Assembly: GCF_014230055.1 (NCBI RefSeq)
Contig: NZ_JACHVA010000040.1
Coordinates: forward strand, 62,001-126,000
DNA from: Puniceicoccus vermicola
Lineage (GTDB): Bacteria > Verrucomicrobiota > Verrucomicrobiia > Opitutales > Puniceicoccaceae
Length of the DNA: 64,000 nt
Reading direction: 5' to 3'
In this document: one piece after another, positions 41,255 through 51,002 of the stretch
Layout: every line of letters starts with the position of its first letter
Position numbering within the stretch: position 1 is the first letter of the stretch
The notes under the pieces: generated by a model
What the model was told of the DNA's origin: nothing
The model's database searches: none
The model's input: the letters and a program-made list of their open reading frames with translations, nothing else
Made by a program: the position numbers and the translations under genes

Positions 41255-41701
41255 TTACTCGCTCGTTTCTTTGGGAATCTTGTTGTCCGTGCGGACGAGC
41301 AAGACCGGCTCCTTGGTCTTCACCCAGATCCCCTGCTCCTTGAAGTGGCGGGCGGTAACCGTCTCACAAGCCTCACCAATCGTCTCCACCGGGAAACGGC
41401 GCCCCTTCGGGGTTGTATTGAACTCGTACGCGGCCCGGATGATCTTGTCCTTGGCCAACTGAGGGCTTTCCCCTTCGGGAATTTGGACTACCCAACCCGT
41501 GAGGTCGATGCCTTGCAGCTTGCCCTCGGGGTCCGAGACCATGATCGAAAACTCCTTTTTTACGGGCGGAGCCTTCGGTTCTTCCTCTTTCTCCAACTCC
41601 TTATTGATGTCCTCAATGATCTGGCTGACCTGACGGACATCGAGTTCGTTGCGCTGGAGAACACGCTTGAGAAGATCCATTTCAACTTTACGACCGGGCA
41701 T
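41255..41701 (-). CDS. Conserved-looking protein of unknown function
   Basis: The 148-residue protein is not recognised. It has an N-terminal helical stretch (MDLLKRVLQRNELDVRQVSQ), an acidic Glu/Lys/Pro linker near residues 35-50, and a mixed beta/alpha C-terminal part (EFSIMVSDPEGKLQGIDLTG, then AKDKIIRAAYEFNTTPKG and IWVKTKEPVLLVRTD). Codon use and composition look like a real gene. There is no signal peptide or membrane segment. A second Met seven codons in is a possible start. It precedes the efp gene on the other side of an 80-base gap and shares its strand. Confidence 0.6.
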   Translation of the reverse strand: MPGRKVEMDLLKRVLQRNELDVRQVSQIIEDINKELEKEEEPKAPPVKKEFSIMVSDPEGKLQGIDLTGWVVQIPEGESPQLAKDKIIRAAYEFNTTPKGRRFPVETIGEACETVTARHFKEQGIWVKTKEPVLLVRTDNKIPKETSE

Positions 41702-41781: not shown

Positions 41782-42339
41782 CTAGACGCGACCGAGGTAC
41801 GAGCCGTTGTCCGTGCTCACCTTGATGCGGTCTCCCGGCTTGATGAACAGGGGCACTTGAACGGTAATCCCCGTCGTCGTCACTGCGGGCTTCTGCGCGG
41901 CACTGGCCGTATCTCCCCGAAGACCCTCGGGAGCTTCCGCCACATCCATTTCCACGGAAGATGGCAGCTGGACCTGCACCGGGCGACCATCCACATGAAG
42001 AATGTCATACTCCTGGTTTTCGGTCAGATAGGCCTTCTTGTCTTCCAGCAAATCAAACGGAATCATCGTATCCTCAAAGGTCTCCGGGTGGAGAAAATGA
42101 TAGCCGTCCTGATCTTCGTAGCTGAACTCGAGGCGCAAATTCTCGGTGTGCATGAACTCCACCGACTCCGTCGAACGGAACTTCTGGGTGGTGGTGGATC
42201 CGGTATTGAGGTTGCGGAGCGTAGCCTGAACAAACCCGGCCTGACGGCCCTGGGTGCGGTGAAGCATTTCCAGTACGAGGTGGGGAGCGCTCTGGTAGTC
42301 GATGACTCGACCTTTTCGAATTTCGGTTGGTGATGCCAT
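41782..42339 (-). CDS. efp: Elongation factor P with Arg32 at the domain I tip
   Basis: The 185-residue protein has the three-domain EF-P layout. Domain I starts MASPTEIRKGRVIDYQ and carries the tip loop HRTQGRQAGFVQAT. Domain II has YHFLHPETFEDTMIP, and the C-terminal OB domain has EAPEGLRGDTASAAQKPAV and VPLFIKPGDRIKV. EF-P rescues ribosomes stalled on polyproline. In E. coli the tip residue is Lys34, modified by EpmA/EpmB. Here the tip is Arg32, the position rhamnosylated by EarP in other bacteria. No modification enzyme is nearby. The residue may be modified or used as plain arginine. Confidence 0.95.
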   Translation of the reverse strand: MASPTEIRKGRVIDYQSAPHLVLEMLHRTQGRQAGFVQATLRNLNTGSTTTQKFRSTESVEFMHTENLRLEFSYEDQDGYHFLHPETFEDTMIPFDLLEDKKAYLTENQEYDILHVDGRPVQVQLPSSVEMDVAEAPEGLRGDTASAAQKPAVTTTGITVQVPLFIKPGDRIKVSTDNGSYLGRV

Positions 42340-42509: not shown

Positions 42510-43316
42510 ATGCCCGAACTTGCGGAAGTGGAATACTACAAGAGGCGCTGGGAGCCGGCGCTCGGCCAAACTGTGCAAAAGATTGACCTGCATGAGAAAA
42601 ACAGGGTTTTCCGAGGGACGGACACCGAGGATCTGACCAAGAGCTTAACCGGAAGCCAATTCAGCGAAGCGCGGGCCCATGGGAAACAAATGCTTTTCCG
42701 ATTTGGGGAAGAAGGCTGGCTCGGGGTTCATCTCGGCATGGCCGGAAAGCTCTTCTGTCAGTCTCCCGAGACGTTCGAACCGCACAAACACGACCACTTG
42801 GTCATTCACCTCGAACCCAGCGTTCTCATTTTCAGAGATACTCGATATTTTGGCCGGATTCTCTGGCATCGCGGACCGGAGGAACCAGATTGGTGGACTC
42901 AGGCCGGGCGCAACCTTCTCGATGATGACTACACCGAAGAGATTTTCCGCGAGAGCCTGAGAAGACGTTCCAAGACTCCCGCCAAATCGCTACTTCTGGA
43001 CCAGAAACATTTTCCCGGAATCGGGAATTGGATGGCAGACGAGATCCTCTGGCGGGCCGCTGTTCATCCCGAAAAGCGCGGAGGCCAACTGAGCGAAAAA
43101 GAGATCTCTGCGCTCTACCAGTGCCTCCGTGAAGTATGTCGCGACGCGATGCGGGTCATTGCCCCTGACTGGTCCGACCCTCCCCAAAGTTGGCTATTTC
43201 GTCACCGCTGGAAAGATGGAGGCATTTGCCCGAAAACGGAAAAACCTCTGGCCCGGATTCAGGTAGGCGGACGGACCACCTGCTACTCTCCGGCCCGACA
43301 GGGTAAAGCGCCTTAA
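42510..43316 (+). CDS. Formamidopyrimidine-DNA glycosylase family protein with degenerate zinc finger
   Basis: The 268-residue protein starts MPELAEVEYYKRRWEPALG, keeping the catalytic Pro2 and Glu3. It has the beta-lysine in ARAHGKQMLFRFG, the LGVHLGMAGKL block and the H2TH region with FPGIGNWMADEILW. The C-terminal finger normally has four zinc cysteines. Here only the first remains (GICPKTEKP ... GGRTTCYSPARQ), the others being Thr, Ser and Ala, so the finger is probably zincless while keeping the GGR turn. It removes oxidised purines in base-excision repair. It converges on nspC, the two stops sharing TTAA. Confidence 0.9.
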   Translation: MPELAEVEYYKRRWEPALGQTVQKIDLHEKNRVFRGTDTEDLTKSLTGSQFSEARAHGKQMLFRFGEEGWLGVHLGMAGKLFCQSPETFEPHKHDHLVIHLEPSVLIFRDTRYFGRILWHRGPEEPDWWTQAGRNLLDDDYTEEIFRESLRRRSKTPAKSLLLDQKHFPGIGNWMADEILWRAAVHPEKRGGQLSEKEISALYQCLREVCRDAMRVIAPDWSDPPQSWLFRHRWKDGGICPKTEKPLARIQVGGRTTCYSPARQGKAP

Positions 43317-44488
43317 CCCAGCCTGTCCCGAAACGTCTCGTATCCGAAACGCCGCGCGGTTTCGAATTCCCCGTTCTCCCGCAGCACCGCGATGGAGGGA
43401 AGCTGAATCCCGTTAAAGGTGGTATTCTTCACCATGGTATAATGACCCATGTCTCCGAATACGATTCGGTCGCCAACCTCGAGAGGTTGATCGAAAGAAT
43501 ATTCTCCGATCACGTCGCCAGCCAGGCAGGTCAGCCCCCCGAGACGATAGGTATAGGGCTTCTCATTGGGCCGAGCGGCTCCGTAGATTTCGGGTCGATA
43601 GGGCATTTCGAGGACATCGGGCATGTGCGCCGTGACCGATGTATCCAAAATCACATTGCGACCGTGATTCTCTGTGATATCGAGAACCGTGGTCACCAAG
43701 ACTCCGGTGTTCAAGCCGAAGGCCTCGCCCGGCTCCAAGTAAACCTTTAGCCCCGTTTTTTCGCGGAACTCCCGAACGATCCGGATGAGTCGATCAATAT
43801 CATAATCGTCTCGGGTGACGTGATGCCCTCCTCCGAAATTGATCCATTTCAGATGAGGAAAGCACCAGCCAAATTTTTCTACCACAACTGCCAAAGTCCT
43901 CTCCAAGGCATCAGAATTATGCTCACAGAGAGTGTGAAAATGCAGGCCGTCGATCCCCTCCAAAGAGGCCTCGGACAACTCTTCCGAGCGGATCCCCAAG
44001 CGCGAGCCCGGTGAGCACGGATCATAGAGAGGAGTGTGCCCCTCGGAATGTTCAGGATTCACCCGCAACCCGAAATCGATGGAACCATTTCCCTCCCGGG
44101 CAAACTCGATCCAACGATCCTTTTGCGACAGCGAGTTGAAGACCACGTGATTCACCAGGGGCAGGGATACCTCAAAATCCTCTTTGCGGTAGGCCGGCGC
44201 AAAGATGTGAACCTCTCCACCCACTTCTTCGCGGGCGAGTTGTGCCTCGTGAGGCGAACTCGCACAGGCCCCATCGACATATTGTCCAACGAGTGGGAGC
44301 AGAGGGCGGCAGGCAAAGCCTTTCAGTGCCAGCAACACCGTCGCCCCACTCTCGTCCTTCACCCGGCGCAGCTTCTCGAGATTCTCCCGAAAAGCCCTCT
44401 CCACCATGACGTAGGACGGGCTATCCGACTCGCGAAGAATGAGTTTCAGCTCATCGCCAGTCGGAAAGTGAATGGGAATATCGCTCAA
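43313..44488 (-). CDS. nspC: Carboxynorspermidine/carboxyspermidine decarboxylase
   Basis: The 391-residue protein is a fold-type III PLP decarboxylase of the NspC family. The PLP lysine is Lys56 in VLLALKGFACRPLL. Family blocks are DGACASSPHEAQLAREEVGG, LRVNPEHSEGHTPLYDPC, GLHFHTLCEHNSDALERTL and WINFGGGHHVTRDDYDIDRL. It removes CO2 from carboxyspermidine or carboxynorspermidine to give the polyamine. The start is inferred as TTG at 44488, where TTGA overlaps the stop of the upstream dehydrogenase gene and GGAG lies eight bases before. It is the partner of the adjacent dehydrogenase. Confidence 0.93.
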   Translation of the reverse strand: MSDIPIHFPTGDELKLILRESDSPSYVMVERAFRENLEKLRRVKDESGATVLLALKGFACRPLLPLVGQYVDGACASSPHEAQLAREEVGGEVHIFAPAYRKEDFEVSLPLVNHVVFNSLSQKDRWIEFAREGNGSIDFGLRVNPEHSEGHTPLYDPCSPGSRLGIRSEELSEASLEGIDGLHFHTLCEHNSDALERTLAVVVEKFGWCFPHLKWINFGGGHHVTRDDYDIDRLIRIVREFREKTGLKVYLEPGEAFGLNTGVLVTTVLDITENHGRNVILDTSVTAHMPDVLEMPYRPEIYGAARPNEKPYTYRLGGLTCLAGDVIGEYSFDQPLEVGDRIVFGDMGHYTMVKNTTFNGIQLPSIAVLRENGEFETARRFGYETFRDRLG

Positions 44489-45669
44489 ACCGGGATCTCC
44501 ACGCGAGTCCAGGGAAGGCCGTACTGGTTCAAGTCTTCCATGAAAGGATCCGGATCCATTTGCTCCATGTTGAAGACGCCTTCTCCGCTCCACTTTCCGG
44601 TAAGCATCATCTTGGCACCGATCATTGCCGGGACGCCAGTCGTGTAGGAGATGGCCTGAGACTTCACCTCCTTGTAGCAATCCTCGTGATTGCAGATGTT
44701 GTAGACGTAGACCTTTTTGCGCTCTCCGTCACGAACCCCGTCAGCGATACATCCGATGCAAGTGCGCCCTTTGGTCAATGGACCGAGGCTGGCGGGATCG
44801 GGAAGGACGGCTTTGAGGAACTGGAGAGGAATGATCTGCTGCCCCTGATACTCGACCGGATCAATCCGGGTCATCCCGACATTCTGCAAGACCTCGAGGT
44901 GCTTCAGATAATTGTCGGAAAAAGTCATCCAGAACCGGGCCGATTTCAGGCCTTGGATGTTCTTGGTCAAAGACTCCAACTCTTCGTGATACATCCGGTA
45001 GATGTTCATCGGCCCAATGCCTTCCGGGAAATCGAAGCTATTCTTGGTCGAAAGCGCCGGCGTCTCGACCCACTCCCCATTTTCGAAGTGGCGGCAAGGA
45101 GCGGTGACCTCGCGGATATTGATCTCGGGATTAAAGTTGGTCGCGAAGGGCATCCCGTGGTTGCCCGCATTCGCGTCGATGATGTCGAGCTCGTGAATCT
45201 CCTCAAAGTCGTGCTTCGCCATCCAGGCGGTGAAGACGTTGGTCACGCCAGGATCGAACCCGGAGCCGAGAAGTGCCATCAAACCCTTCTCCTTAAAACG
45301 CTCTTGATATGCCCACTGCCAAGAATACTCAAACTTCGCGGTTTCCGGCGGCTCATAGTTGGCCGTATCGAGGTAATTGACTCCCGCAGCGAGGCAGGCA
45401 TCCATGATCGAAAGATCCTGATAAGGCAGGGCCACATTGATCACCAGATCCGGCTTCTCCTTCTCGAGAAATGCGGTCAGAGCCGGGACGTCATCGGCAT
45501 CGATCTGCGCTGTGCGCACGTCGCGGCCAATCTCAGCGGCAATTGCCTTGCACTTCGACTCCGTGCGGCTAGCCAGAACGATTTCTTCGAAAACTTCGGG
45601 CACTTGCGCGCACTTGTGAGCGACGACACCGCCGACACCTCCAGCACCAATAATGATCACTTTTGCCAT
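44485..45669 (-). CDS. Carboxynorspermidine/carboxyspermidine dehydrogenase (saccharopine dehydrogenase family)
   Basis: The 394-residue protein has an N-terminal NAD(P) fold (VIIIGAGGVGGVVAHKCAQ), the catalytic-type region NYLDTANYEPPETAKFEYSW and LLGSGFDPGVTNVFTAW, and a late block GRTCIGCIADGVRDG. It belongs to the saccharopine-dehydrogenase-like CANSDH group, which condenses a diamine with aspartate semialdehyde and reduces the imine. Followed by the decarboxylase with a four-base overlap, it makes spermidine (or norspermidine) from putrescine (or diaminopropane). speA lies 142 bases upstream on the same strand. Confidence 0.93.
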   Translation of the reverse strand: MAKVIIIGAGGVGGVVAHKCAQVPEVFEEIVLASRTESKCKAIAAEIGRDVRTAQIDADDVPALTAFLEKEKPDLVINVALPYQDLSIMDACLAAGVNYLDTANYEPPETAKFEYSWQWAYQERFKEKGLMALLGSGFDPGVTNVFTAWMAKHDFEEIHELDIIDANAGNHGMPFATNFNPEINIREVTAPCRHFENGEWVETPALSTKNSFDFPEGIGPMNIYRMYHEELESLTKNIQGLKSARFWMTFSDNYLKHLEVLQNVGMTRIDPVEYQGQQIIPLQFLKAVLPDPASLGPLTKGRTCIGCIADGVRDGERKKVYVYNICNHEDCYKEVKSQAISYTTGVPAMIGAKMMLTGKWSGEGVFNMEQMDPDPFMEDLNQYGLPWTRVEIPV

Positions 45670-45811
45670 ACAACACGGCTAACAGTTTGTAGCCTCTTCG
45701 CCAAGAGGAAGAATCGGTTAAATATTCAGCACCGTTACGGAACCGGTACACATGGTAGGCCGCAGAAAAATGGACCACCTAGGAAAGCGGATGGGGCGAA
45801 ACCTCCTCCGC

Positions 45812-47740
45812 CTACTCTTCGAAGTAAGTGTAACCGCGCAGCGTATCCTCGAAAGTCTTCACGATCGAACGCCGCTCATCGACATCGATATCTCCCGAGC
45901 GCACCGCCCGCTCAACCGACGCACGAAAACGCGAAGAAACCTGCTTCGGGTCGTATTCGACGTAAGAAAGAACGTCGGCAATGGAGTCGCCTTCAATTTC
46001 GCGGTCCACTTCAAAATCGCCGCCCTTCCCCATTCTCACGCTCACTACATGAGTATCGCCGAGAAGATTGTGCAGATCGCCCAAAGTCTCTTGGTACGCT
46101 CCAACGAGGAAGACCCCGAGCAGATACTTCTCCTGATCCCGCGGTTCGTGAACCGCCAGAGTGCGGCGGATGCGGCCCGATTCGACAAAACGGTCCACTT
46201 TCCCATCACAATCACAGGTAATGTCCGAAAGGATCGCCCGGCGGCTCGGCTCCTCGTTGAGACGCTCAATAGGCACAACCGGAAACACTTGGTCAATCGC
46301 CCAGGCATCGGGCAGCGACTGAAAGAGGCTGAAATTTCCGTAGTAAATATCGGCGAGGAAAGACTCCAACCCGAGAAGCTCCTCCGGCACCTCGTCCTCA
46401 TCCATTTGCGAACAAAGCTTCCAAATCTTCGAAAGATTGTCCCAAAAAATTTTCTCTCCGAGACTCCGATCGCGCAGCCCGAGCGCTCCCGCCTGGAAAA
46501 GCTGGCGAATCTCGTCCCGGTAGTAGAAGGCATCGTTGTAACACTCCTGCAGATTCTCGTCGTTCAAGGCGCGGCCAACCTCCAGAGAATTGCGAAGCAG
46601 GTAGTGCGCATCTTGCGGCACCTCCGACTCGTCAAGATCCGGCTCAAAACGATTCACATCGAGGACGTCGACCAACAAGACGGAATAATAGGCCACGGTC
46701 GCCCGGCCGGACTCCGACACGATGGTTGGATGATCCACCTTGGAGAGATCCATCTGGTGCTTCACCGTTTCGATAACGTCGCGGCAATACTCTTGGATCG
46801 TGTAGTTCCGACTGCCTCCACTCTTTGATTGGGAGCCCTCATAATCGATCGCCAGCCCCCCACCAATATCGAGCGTCCCCATCGGCGCCCCCTCCTCGAT
46901 CAGCCCGACGTAAACCCGGCAGGCTTCGGTCAGGGAAGTACGGATATCCCGAATATCCGGAACTTGAGATCCCAAGTGATAGTGCAGGAGCTGCACACAA
47001 TCGAGATACCCCGATTCCCGGAAGCGATCAATGCAGTCCATCAACTGACCGGCGTTGAGCCCGAAGACACTACGATCCCCACCGGAATCCTTCCAGTGAC
47101 CACTACCACAAGAGGAAAGGCGAACCCGGACACCAACCTTCGGGCGAATCCCCAACCGCTTGGCCGTCTCGATGATCAGATTGACCTCGATCGGAGTCTC
47201 GATGACGAAAACGCAGTCAATCCCGATTCGGCGGGCGTAAAGGCCCAACTCGATAAAGCGCTCATCCTTGTAGCCATTGCAAATGAGGAGATCTCCCGGG
47301 TTCTTCAGGTAGGCAAGAGCGGCAATGAGCTCAGCCTTGCTTCCCGCCTCAAGCCCGTGGCCGTATCGGGCGCCATAGGTGCAGACCTCGTCGATCACTT
47401 GCTCCTGCTGGTTCACCTTAACCGGGTAGACTCCACGGTATCTTCCTCCGTAGGAATATTCTTCGATCGCCTCGTTAAATCCTGAATTCAGTTCGTGAAT
47501 CTGCTGGTCGAGCAATTCGGGAAACCGCAGGAGAACGGGCATCGAAATTCCCCGCTTCCGCAATCCCTCTACCACCCTCGGCAAAGAAAGGCGGGATCCA
47601 TCATTCTCCCCTTTAGGACAGAGGACCACATCCCCCTCCTCAGATACGTCAAAATAACCACCACTCCATTCGCGAACACCATAAAGGGCGGCAGAGTCTT
47701 CGGAGGTCCAGGACTGGGAATCCATCTCGGGGGAATTCAT
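45812..47740 (-). CDS. speA: Biosynthetic arginine decarboxylase
   Basis: The 642-residue protein matches the long SpeA form. The PLP lysine is Lys108 in GVYPVKVNQQEQV. Other blocks are EAGSKAELIAAL, LLICNGYKDERFIELGL, QLLHYHLGSQVPDI, the DIGGGLAIDYEG strand and the C-terminal SDITCDCDGKVDRFV with cysteines near the active site. It turns arginine into agmatine, the first step to putrescine. The start at MNSPEMDSQ is chosen by family length; a longer in-frame start at 47785 is possible. It lies upstream of the two carboxyspermidine genes, suggesting one polyamine locus. Confidence 0.95.
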   Translation of the reverse strand: MNSPEMDSQSWTSEDSAALYGVREWSGGYFDVSEEGDVVLCPKGENDGSRLSLPRVVEGLRKRGISMPVLLRFPELLDQQIHELNSGFNEAIEEYSYGGRYRGVYPVKVNQQEQVIDEVCTYGARYGHGLEAGSKAELIAALAYLKNPGDLLICNGYKDERFIELGLYARRIGIDCVFVIETPIEVNLIIETAKRLGIRPKVGVRVRLSSCGSGHWKDSGGDRSVFGLNAGQLMDCIDRFRESGYLDCVQLLHYHLGSQVPDIRDIRTSLTEACRVYVGLIEEGAPMGTLDIGGGLAIDYEGSQSKSGGSRNYTIQEYCRDVIETVKHQMDLSKVDHPTIVSESGRATVAYYSVLLVDVLDVNRFEPDLDESEVPQDAHYLLRNSLEVGRALNDENLQECYNDAFYYRDEIRQLFQAGALGLRDRSLGEKIFWDNLSKIWKLCSQMDEDEVPEELLGLESFLADIYYGNFSLFQSLPDAWAIDQVFPVVPIERLNEEPSRRAILSDITCDCDGKVDRFVESGRIRRTLAVHEPRDQEKYLLGVFLVGAYQETLGDLHNLLGDTHVVSVRMGKGGDFEVDREIEGDSIADVLSYVEYDPKQVSSRFRASVERAVRSGDIDVDERRSIVKTFEDTLRGYTYFEE

Positions 47741-47832
47741 TTCTTTCACTCGACAACGATCAGTGCAATCCGACCGGATTCGCAAGCGCTAACACCAATT
47801 CCCTTTCCAACCTCAGCTTGCGTCTACGCAAT

Positions 47833-48822: not shown

Positions 48823-50094
48823 TTACCGGATCATTCCGGCAGCCACGGTCTTGTTCGTGAACTCGTCGATCAGGATGAAACTTCCCGTGAAGCGATTGCG
48901 TCCGTATGAATCGAAGAACAAGGGCTCCGAAGTGCGGAGCTGGACACGGGCGATGTCGTTCATCCCAATGTTCAGATCCGACTCAATCTTGTGCAGATTG
49001 TTGATGTCTACCTTGTACTTGATCCCCTTGACCATCGCCTTCGCCGTCTTCGTCGTGTGGCGGATGATGTACTTCCCGCGGGTCTGCAGAGTGTTATCCG
49101 AAGAGAACCAGCAAATCATGGCGTCAATGTCCTGACTCACCTGCGGCTGGTTATTCGGCTTCACGATCATGTCGCCCCGACTGATGTCGATCTCGTTCTC
49201 GAGACGGATCGCGACGGACATCGGCGAAAAGGCTTCATCGACTTCCTCTTCGAATCGATCAATTGAGCGGATTTTCGAAGAGAAACCGGAGGGCAACACC
49301 GTAACCTCGTCGCCGGGCTTGAAAACCCCGCCGGCGATGCGACCACCATACCCCCGATAATCGTGATACTTCTCGGAATGCGGGCGGATCACCCATTGAA
49401 CCGGGAAGCGGGCATCGACGTGATTCGCATCCGAACCGATATAGACCGTCTCCAAATGGTAGAGAAGCGGTGAGCCTTCATACCAAGGCATGTTCTCGGA
49501 ACGACGGACCACATTGTCTCCATGCAAAGCACTGATGGGGATGAAGGTCATCTCCTTGATGTCCAGCCGCGACGCAAAGTCGGAGAACTGCTTCACGATT
49601 TCGTTGTAGCGTTCTTCCGAATAGTCGACGAGGTCCATCTTGTTGATGCAGAGGACCACGTGCTCGATACGAAGAAGCGAAGCGATGAAGGAGTGGCGGC
49701 AAGTTTGCTCGATCACTCCCTTGCGGGCATCAATGAGGATGATCGCCAGATTTGCGGTCGAGGCCCCCGTCACCATGTTCCGGGTGTATTGAATGTGCCC
49801 CGGGGTGTCCGCGATGATGAACTTGCGCTTGGGAGTCGCGAAGTAGCGATAGGCCACGTCGATCGTGATCCCCTGCTCCCGCTCGGCCCGCAATCCATCT
49901 GTGAGAAGGGCCAAATTGACATTGGCGTCCCCCCGCTGGTGGCTGCTGCGTTCGATCGCCTCCAACTGATCTTCAAAGATCGTCTTGGTATCGTACATGA
50001 GCCGCCCAATGAGCGTGCTCTTACCATCGTCGACACTCCCTGCAGTCGTAAACCGCAGGAGGTCCATATCCATGTATCCGTCGTCAGTAGACAT
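48823..50094 (-). CDS. cysN: Sulfate adenylyltransferase subunit 1 (GTPase)
   Basis: The 423-residue protein is an EF-Tu-like GTPase with P-loop GSVDDGKSTLIGRL (from residue 19), switch II ADTPGHIQYTRNM and NKMD, then two beta-barrel domains with VQWVIRPHSEKYHDYRGYGG. CysN uses GTP hydrolysis to drive ATP sulfurylase by CysD. It has no fused APS-kinase domain; that activity is the separate cysC. The ATG overlaps the cysD TGA by one base (TGATG), so translation is coupled. Confidence 0.96.
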   Translation of the reverse strand: MSTDDGYMDMDLLRFTTAGSVDDGKSTLIGRLMYDTKTIFEDQLEAIERSSHQRGDANVNLALLTDGLRAEREQGITIDVAYRYFATPKRKFIIADTPGHIQYTRNMVTGASTANLAIILIDARKGVIEQTCRHSFIASLLRIEHVVLCINKMDLVDYSEERYNEIVKQFSDFASRLDIKEMTFIPISALHGDNVVRRSENMPWYEGSPLLYHLETVYIGSDANHVDARFPVQWVIRPHSEKYHDYRGYGGRIAGGVFKPGDEVTVLPSGFSSKIRSIDRFEEEVDEAFSPMSVAIRLENEIDISRGDMIVKPNNQPQVSQDIDAMICWFSSDNTLQTRGKYIIRHTTKTAKAMVKGIKYKVDINNLHKIESDLNIGMNDIARVQLRTSEPLFFDSYGRNRFTGSFILIDEFTNKTVAAGMIR

Positions 50095-51002
50095 CAAAAA
50101 TACCCTTCCTTTTTACGATCTTCCATCGCCGATTCGGAACGCTTGTCGTCGGCGCGGCCACCGCGCTCAGTCTGACGAGCCGAGGCAACTTCCTCGATAA
50201 TCTTTTCCAAAGTGTCAGCAGTCGACTCCACCGCACCGGTGCAGGTGGCGTCGCCCACGGTCCGGAAACGGACGATGCGCTTCTCGGGCTTCTCGTCATC
50301 TCGGAGAGTGAGAAACTCGTTGTTGGCGAGAAGAACACCTTCCCGCTCGATCACCTCACGCTCGTGAGAGAAGTAGATCGATGGGATCGGAATCTCTTCG
50401 CGGAGGATGTATTGCCACACATCCATCTCGGTCCAATTCGACAACGGGAAGACACGGAAATGCTCCCCTTGCGACTTGCGGGCGTTGAAAAGATTCCAGA
50501 GCTCGGGGCGCTGGTTCTTCGGATCCCACTGGCCAAATTCGTCCCGGTGGGAGAAGAAACGTTCCTTCGCGCGGGCCTTTTCCTCGTCGCGACGGGCACC
50601 CCCAACGGCGGCATCGAACCGATTTTCCTCAATCGCATCCAGGAGAGTGACGGTCTGCAGCGCGTTGCGGCTAGCATTCGGACCCTTCTCTTCTACGGCA
50701 CGACCCTGGTCGATCGAATCCTGCACGGAAGCGACGATGAGCTGTCCGCCGATATCCTTGATGAACTGGTCGCGAAACTCGATGGTTTCCGGGAAATTAT
50801 GGCCGGTATCAACGTGCATGAACGGCATCGGTGGACGCGCGGGCCAGAACGCTTTCTGCGCGAGCCGTGCGACCACGATGGAGTCTTTCCCCCCTGAAAA
50901 GAGGATTACCGGCCGCTCGAACTGGGCAGCAGTCTCACGGAGGACGAAAATCGCCTCCGATTCAAGCTGCTCCAAATGACGGATCTTATAAGAGACACTC
51001 AT
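50094..51002 (-). CDS. cysD: Sulfate adenylyltransferase subunit 2
   Basis: The 302-residue PP-loop enzyme has HLEQLESEAIFVLRETAAQF, the pyrophosphate loop LFSGGKDSIV, HVDTGHNFPETIEFRD, VGGARRDEEKARAKER and FPLSNWTEMDVWQYI. It adenylates sulfate to APS in complex with CysN. The C-terminal 40 residues are charged (GRADDKRSESAMEDRKK), as in other CysD. It is the first gene of cysD-cysN and its start lies 187 bases from cysC. Confidence 0.97.
   Translation of the reverse strand: MSVSYKIRHLEQLESEAIFVLRETAAQFERPVILFSGGKDSIVVARLAQKAFWPARPPMPFMHVDTGHNFPETIEFRDQFIKDIGGQLIVASVQDSIDQGRAVEEKGPNASRNALQTVTLLDAIEENRFDAAVGGARRDEEKARAKERFFSHRDEFGQWDPKNQRPELWNLFNARKSQGEHFRVFPLSNWTEMDVWQYILREEIPIPSIYFSHEREVIEREGVLLANNEFLTLRDDEKPEKRIVRFRTVGDATCTGAVESTADTLEKIIEEVASARQTERGGRADDKRSESAMEDRKKEGYF

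Follow-up and report, generated by a model that had tools for sequence, protein, structure and literature searches.

The 64,000-nucleotide stretch of the Puniceicoccus vermicola genome analysed here (the window) encodes an elongation factor P (EF-P) that carries an arginine, Arg32, at the tip of its functional loop. The initial annotation of this locus assigned the protein to the rhamnosylated Arg32 type of EF-P and asked whether the arginine is modified in this lineage, and by what. This is a fair question. The way in which EF-P acts is open in more than half of bacteria, namely those without a known modification enzyme (PMC6544042).

The efp gene and the loop around Arg32

The gene runs on the minus strand from an ATG at 42339 to a stop codon at 41782 and its product is complete, whereas the plus-strand reading of the same interval encodes no EF-P (Table 1). 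All three domains (KOW-like, OB and C-terminal) score above their Pfam cut-offs, and the protein reaches 196.4 bits in TIGR00038 (efp), against a cut-off of 185.8. With its three domains, the EF-P fold and a seven-residue β3-β4 loop, it has the features of a canonical EF-P and, as EFP_N (PF08207) has a single match in the P. vermicola genome (a 5.2-Mb draft of 143 contigs, 96% complete), it is the sole EF-P found there. The genomes of the same order with any EF-P match have one match each. Of the relatives found that bear a name, Opitutia bacterium UBA4506 is the closest; its EF-P is 92% identical, in agreement with the verrucomicrobial host that had been proposed.

Table 1. Features of the efp locus, in window coordinates
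Feature	Position	Strand	Basis
efp, elongation factor P, 185 aa	41782..42339	-	translation, Pfam, NCBIfam, fold search
Conserved tip stretch HRTQGRQAGF, codons 27-36	42232..42261	-	translation; invariant in 16/16 rows
Seven-residue β3-β4 loop TQGRQAG, codons 29-35	42235..42255	-	predicted strands 18-28 and 36-43
Tip Arg32, codon 32 (CGT), aligned with E. coli Lys34	42244..42246	-	alignments, sequence
Downstream ORF, 148 aa, no assigned family	41255..41701	-	no Pfam/NCBIfam match

In an AlphaFold2 model of the protein (mean pLDDT 83.7, from a seven-row alignment), the strands formed by residues 18-28 and 36-43 flank the loop 29-35, with Arg32 at its centre, so that translation, alignments and model agree in placing this arginine at the functional tip, as first annotated. 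Among solved structures, the lowest E-value in a fold search was that of the Thermus EF-P 1ueb (TM 0.76, 34% identity), whereas the EF-Ps of C. glutamicum (TM 0.85) and P. aeruginosa (0.79) superpose better and rank lower by E-value. As the two orders disagree, the structural ranking was given no weight.

The loop had also been described as aligning without gaps to the Arg32 type and not to the Lys34 type. The first half of that statement stands, since the loop is gapless against TTRSGRNAAI of the EarP-type EF-P of Shewanella baltica. The second half does not: the alignment is equally gapless to the lysine-tipped loop of S. aureus and to Lys34 of E. coli, as well as to Arg32 of Thermus (1UEB), and the lack of gaps therefore cannot discriminate between EF-P types. 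In pairwise tblastn comparisons, the window protein scored 122 bits with Listeria, 113 with E. coli and 79 with the Shewanella EarP-type EF-P.

EarP, TDP-rhamnose and the genes around efp

The EarP-type EF-Ps of beta- and gammaproteobacteria bear an alpha-rhamnosyl-Arg32, and the window protein has in common with them the tip arginine, the seven-residue loop and the absence of proline two residues before the arginine (Q30-G31-R32). It is unlike them in its 30% identity to the Shewanella EarP-type EF-P and in the gene content of its genome. The searches for EarP and for the TDP-rhamnose genes that the initial annotation had proposed both told against the assignment to the rhamnosylated type. 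EarP (PF10093) was found neither in the P. vermicola draft genome (96% complete) nor in any of 288 genomes of the phylum, P. vermicola included. As none of the 14 control genomes matched either, among them Thermus composti and Deinobacterium chartae, a record known to carry earP was added as a positive control, plasmid pSbal01 of Shewanella baltica OS155, in which earP adjoins efp. In this controlled search pSbal01 matched at 8e-152 and EarP was absent from all 20 verrucomicrobial genomes, including all 17 genomes with the HRTQGRQAGF loop.

Synthesis of TDP-rhamnose requires the epimerase RmlC, which was detected in 11 of the 14 controls and in one of 22 genomes, and was not found in P. vermicola. 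RmlD on its own is uninformative as a marker of rhamnose: each of the 22 genomes and each of the 14 controls has relatives of it, above the cut-off in two of the 22. In P. vermicola its homologues lie below the cut-off only. The searches for EarP and RmlC, like that for EpmA below, covered class genomes other than G387-G457. Together with the tblastn scores, among which the Shewanella EarP-type protein is not the closest, these results leave the assignment to the rhamnosylated Arg32 type unsupported, and rhamnosylation by EarP is rejected on gene content. The one genome with RmlC, G366, is the only HRTQGR genome in which RmlC is joined by an RmlD above the cut-off, the two being neighbours on contig C71, and it has no EarP.

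That earP does not adjoin efp, as the initial annotation noted, is correct: efp is preceded by a MutM/Fpg-like gene and followed by the 148-aa ORF. The P. vermicola neighbours were compared with 21 other loci of unequal lengths, a design in which neighbours shared only among other families would escape. The 148-aa ORF adjoins efp only in the same-genus genomes G131 and G210, and so offers no candidate modifier by linkage; no enzyme of the P. vermicola neighbourhood is kept beside efp outside the genus in these loci. A modifier linked to efp was thus rejected, homologues of the neighbours occurring only in G131 and G210, barring ORFs antisense to efp.

Several other genes of the window lie on the same strand. 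Close to efp, polyamine genes occupy 43313-47785: nspC (carboxynorspermidine decarboxylase), which exceeds its cut-off with 482 bits, a gene for a SpeA-like arginine decarboxylase (Pfam), and one for a protein resembling saccharopine dehydrogenase, possibly a carboxyspermidine dehydrogenase. The gene at 48823-50097 encodes a GTPase similar to elongation factor Tu whose C-terminal domain is of the eEF1A type (Pfam), perhaps the CysN type of sulfate adenylyltransferase.

Tip residues, EpmA and deoxyhypusine synthase in the class

The tip of the main EF-P was read in 152 genomes of the class, a non-random sample made up of 86 genomes from a set of 126 and 66 from a set of 71, and is asparagine in 112, arginine in 32 and lysine in eight. 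We know of no modification of an asparagine at the EF-P tip. The arginine-tipped loops are HRTQGRQAGF (17 genomes of families f1, f2, f6 and f62-f64, and also the two named contigs L033 and L035), PPRMASY (14 genomes, families f7 and f11) and HRTPGRRMAF (one genome, family f5). Genus g28 of family f7 might be Akkermansia. Outside the class, the tip is lysine in all 24 genomes read; 23 of them have a KPGK-type loop, and the remaining one, G004, has an HRTPGK loop and no EpmA. The EF-P of G004 (L079) is 48% identical to that of the window, and this genome is the closest thing seen to a lysine-tipped state after the loss of EpmA. One or two extra EF-P paralogs (L244-L252) are present in the class members G391, G396, G406, G408, G411, G424 and G442, with loops such as SGTAQTKPK, SGAAQAKPK and TGTAQTKHK, in which Ala, Gln or Lys is aligned at the tip.

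In an alignment (A1) that takes in 16 of the 19 HRTQGR-type loci, the ten residues of the tip loop are invariant, and no other invariant run in the protein is as long, whereas 27% of the columns are invariant in the rest of EF-P, whose identity between HRTQGRQAGF families drops to 57-68%. From this contrast in conservation, the tip appears to be under selection within the HRTQGR clade, although it differs between clades.

EF-P trees were built with the loop columns left out. In a quick tree the free search ended worse than two constrained searches, and we therefore relied on a careful tree of 49 rows. Here the source clade, which unites HRTQGR and HRTPGRR loops, has a support of 100/99 and the PPRM clade of 100/100. 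The rows of the class together with G004 separate from nine others with 100/100 in a tree without the long Ehrlichia row and with 85/95 in one that includes it; this clade excludes the one EarP-type row, that of Shewanella. AU tests nevertheless did not reject joining the source clade with the Shewanella row (p 0.40; quick tree 0.54), nor joining the source and PPRM arginine-tipped clades (p 0.24; quick tree 0.69). As the latter joint clade is retained, two separate origins of the arginine tip within the class are not claimed and, with the deep order unsettled and the AU tests permissive, neither are the number of arginine origins or an asparagine or lysine ancestry. The HRTPGRRMAF locus (L019, genome G134) has an arginine tip with proline kept at -2 inside the HRTQGR clade, possibly as an intermediate or a reversal.

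The window protein resembles the EpmA-type Lys34 EF-P, a type found in the phylum outside the class, in its domains and fold, and differs from it in having arginine in place of the tip lysine, QGR in place of PGK, and no EpmA in the genome. EpmA (TIGR00462) scored above the cut-off in 168 of 387 genomes of the phylum, all among the 261 outside the class, and in none of the 126 within it (source, same genus, order or class; counted manually). The best E-value among these 126, 1.1e-65, is at the level of full-length lysyl-tRNA-synthetase-like matches; the over-cut-off matches, among those listed, reach 1e-84 or better. Among the genomes of other classes, at least 17, including G115, G148 and G334, have epmA adjoining efp (locations matched manually).

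The known chemistry of YmfI (5-aminopentanol) acts on lysine. A link between EF-P and deoxyhypusine synthase (DHS) has been suggested (PMC6544042). Of 132 class genomes, 92 have a match to DHS-like proteins (PF01916), above the cut-off in 86, and there is none in P. vermicola or in any of the 17 HRTQGRQAGF genomes. Where both a DHS match and the tip were read (95 class genomes, DHS states entered manually), the tip is asparagine in 94 and lysine in one, and none of the 32 arginine-tipped genomes of the class has a match. In the first genomes tested, a DHS-like gene was present in every HRTPGN genome and in no other, and a two-sided prediction was fixed before fresh genomes were read. Its first half, that a DHS-like gene goes with HRTPGN, was borne out in 29 of 29 genomes read (in the thirtieth named, G424, the main EF-P is in pieces); its second half, that genomes without such a gene carry another loop, failed in all ten read of the 11 named (G401 being the other), where weak matches of about 1e-4 or 1e-5 in six of the 11, below the cut-off, were scored as none. 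The strict link is thereby rejected, and the presence of HRTPGN where there is no DHS-like gene makes this loop independent of that gene. Of three DHS-like proteins checked, one scored over the cut-off as 1,9-bis(guanidino)-5-aza-nonane synthase and two fell below every cut-off; a polyamine role for these genes is at least as likely, and shared ancestry and polyamine metabolism are plain explanations for the one-way association with asparagine.

How Arg32 may act

The window protein is thus an ordinary, sole and full-length EF-P with an arginine tip, in a lineage without EarP, RmlC, EpmA or a DHS-like protein. We consider it rather probable that Arg32 acts without modification; this reading is favoured because the searches for all four proteins were negative and because the tips of the class are mostly asparagine. 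Arg32 would then bear no modification and would contact the P-site tRNA as it is, as reported for Arg33 of EfpL, and EF-P would rescue polyproline stalls in this form. EfpL (YeiP) provides a precedent: its arginine tip is reported to be active unmodified and, in E. coli, mass spectrometry showed no modification on Arg33, which docking placed at the CCA end of the tRNA (PMC11611912). The two proteins are nonetheless distinct, as the window EF-P reaches 120.7 bits where EfpL requires 216, the EfpL loop is longer (by two residues in row L092) and typically has a proline three residues before the arginine, where the seven-residue loop of the window has T29, and EfpL is a paralog whereas the window EF-P stands alone.

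A bare arginine is not automatically functional, as judged from the poor performance of unmodified EF-Ps elsewhere. In the case of N. meningitidis, EF-P with an unmodified Arg32 has some activity on its own ribosome, which is a further precedent, but its activity falls far short of that of the rhamnosylated protein (PMC4739656); in an E. coli reporter, EF-P K34R showed about 20% activity, and the unmodified EF-Ps of P. putida and S. oneidensis fell below the level of the deletion (PMC6544042). Two features of the loop also count against an arginine without modification. One is Q30: EarP-type loops have lost the proline at -2 (PMC6544042), and the window loop follows that pattern. The other is the strict conservation of the loop, which would also fit recognition by an enzyme outside the known set.

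The alternatives have to be weighed against these data. That EarP rhamnosylates Arg32, as in Pseudomonas, Shewanella and Neisseria, would suit the tip arginine and the missing proline; EarP even accepts an E. coli EF-P that carries just K34R (PMC6544042), and the AU tests leave kinship with the single EarP-type row open. It is nevertheless extremely improbable, given that EarP was not found in P. vermicola, in the 288 genomes of the phylum or in the controlled search, that RmlC is confined to a single genome which itself has no EarP, and that the Shewanella protein is not the nearest type by score. A modification of Arg32 by an enzyme not yet tied to EF-P and unlinked to efp, perhaps with a sugar other than rhamnose or another guanidinium chemistry, is the main rival, possible if unlikely. 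In its favour, the loop is identical in all 17 genomes of six families whose EF-Ps have diverged, the canonical arginine EF-Ps of S. oneidensis, P. aeruginosa and N. meningitidis are all rhamnosylated (PMC4739656), and the absence of any known EF-P modification enzyme from more than half of bacteria (PMC6544042) leaves room for others; yet no enzyme is kept beside efp beyond the genus, and a class with mostly asparagine tips and no EpmA in 126 genomes has no evident inherited modifier.

A fuller scenario, in which an ancestor of the class lost EpmA, the tip was rebuilt repeatedly (HRTPGN, HRTPGK, PPRM, HRTQGR) and Arg32 of the HRTQGR type became the substrate of such an arginine-modifying enzyme, seems to us a little less likely still; if true, EF-P would have a second arginine chemistry, one that does not depend on EarP. 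Finally, the tip residue might no longer matter in the class, the arginine being a product of drift. The occurrence of asparagine, arginine and lysine within one class, and of lysine and asparagine within the single family f3, fits this idea, but HRTQGRQAGF is unchanged throughout its families and no invariant run elsewhere in the protein is as long as that at the tip, and we regard drift as very doubtful.

An unmodified Arg32 also has to be seen beside what is known from other phyla. The EF-Ps of Thermus, Deinococcus and Borrelia are arginine-tipped and, according to a supplement legend, Borrelia has no EarP (PMC4739656). Thermus EF-P shares Arg32 in a gapless GR loop (HQKLGRGGA). These proteins differ in phylum and in their other loop residues, and we claim no common origin from the resemblance. 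EarP itself has been reported in certain Fusobacteria, Planctomycetes and Spirochetes (PMC5615199), and tips with Asn, Gln, Met, Ser or Gly are already published (PMC11611912, citing Brewer and Wagner 2024). Among the best matches of a literature search on EF-P, EarP and arginine, supplements excluded, Verrucomicrobia were named only in the EfpL paper, and among those of a search on EF-P with asparagine, likewise without supplements, Akkermansia was not mentioned. Arg-tipped EF-P without EarP has been known since 2016 (Borrelia), and the loop survey of the class extends this known theme. It cautions that a tip arginine should not be read as rhamnosylation, and a class without EpmA (0/126) and with asparagine, arginine and lysine tips constitutes a natural set of variants for the study of polyproline rescue by a bare tip. 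In the window itself, the 52 greedy ORFs contain, as a raw count with no control set, 31 PP motifs and one PPP.
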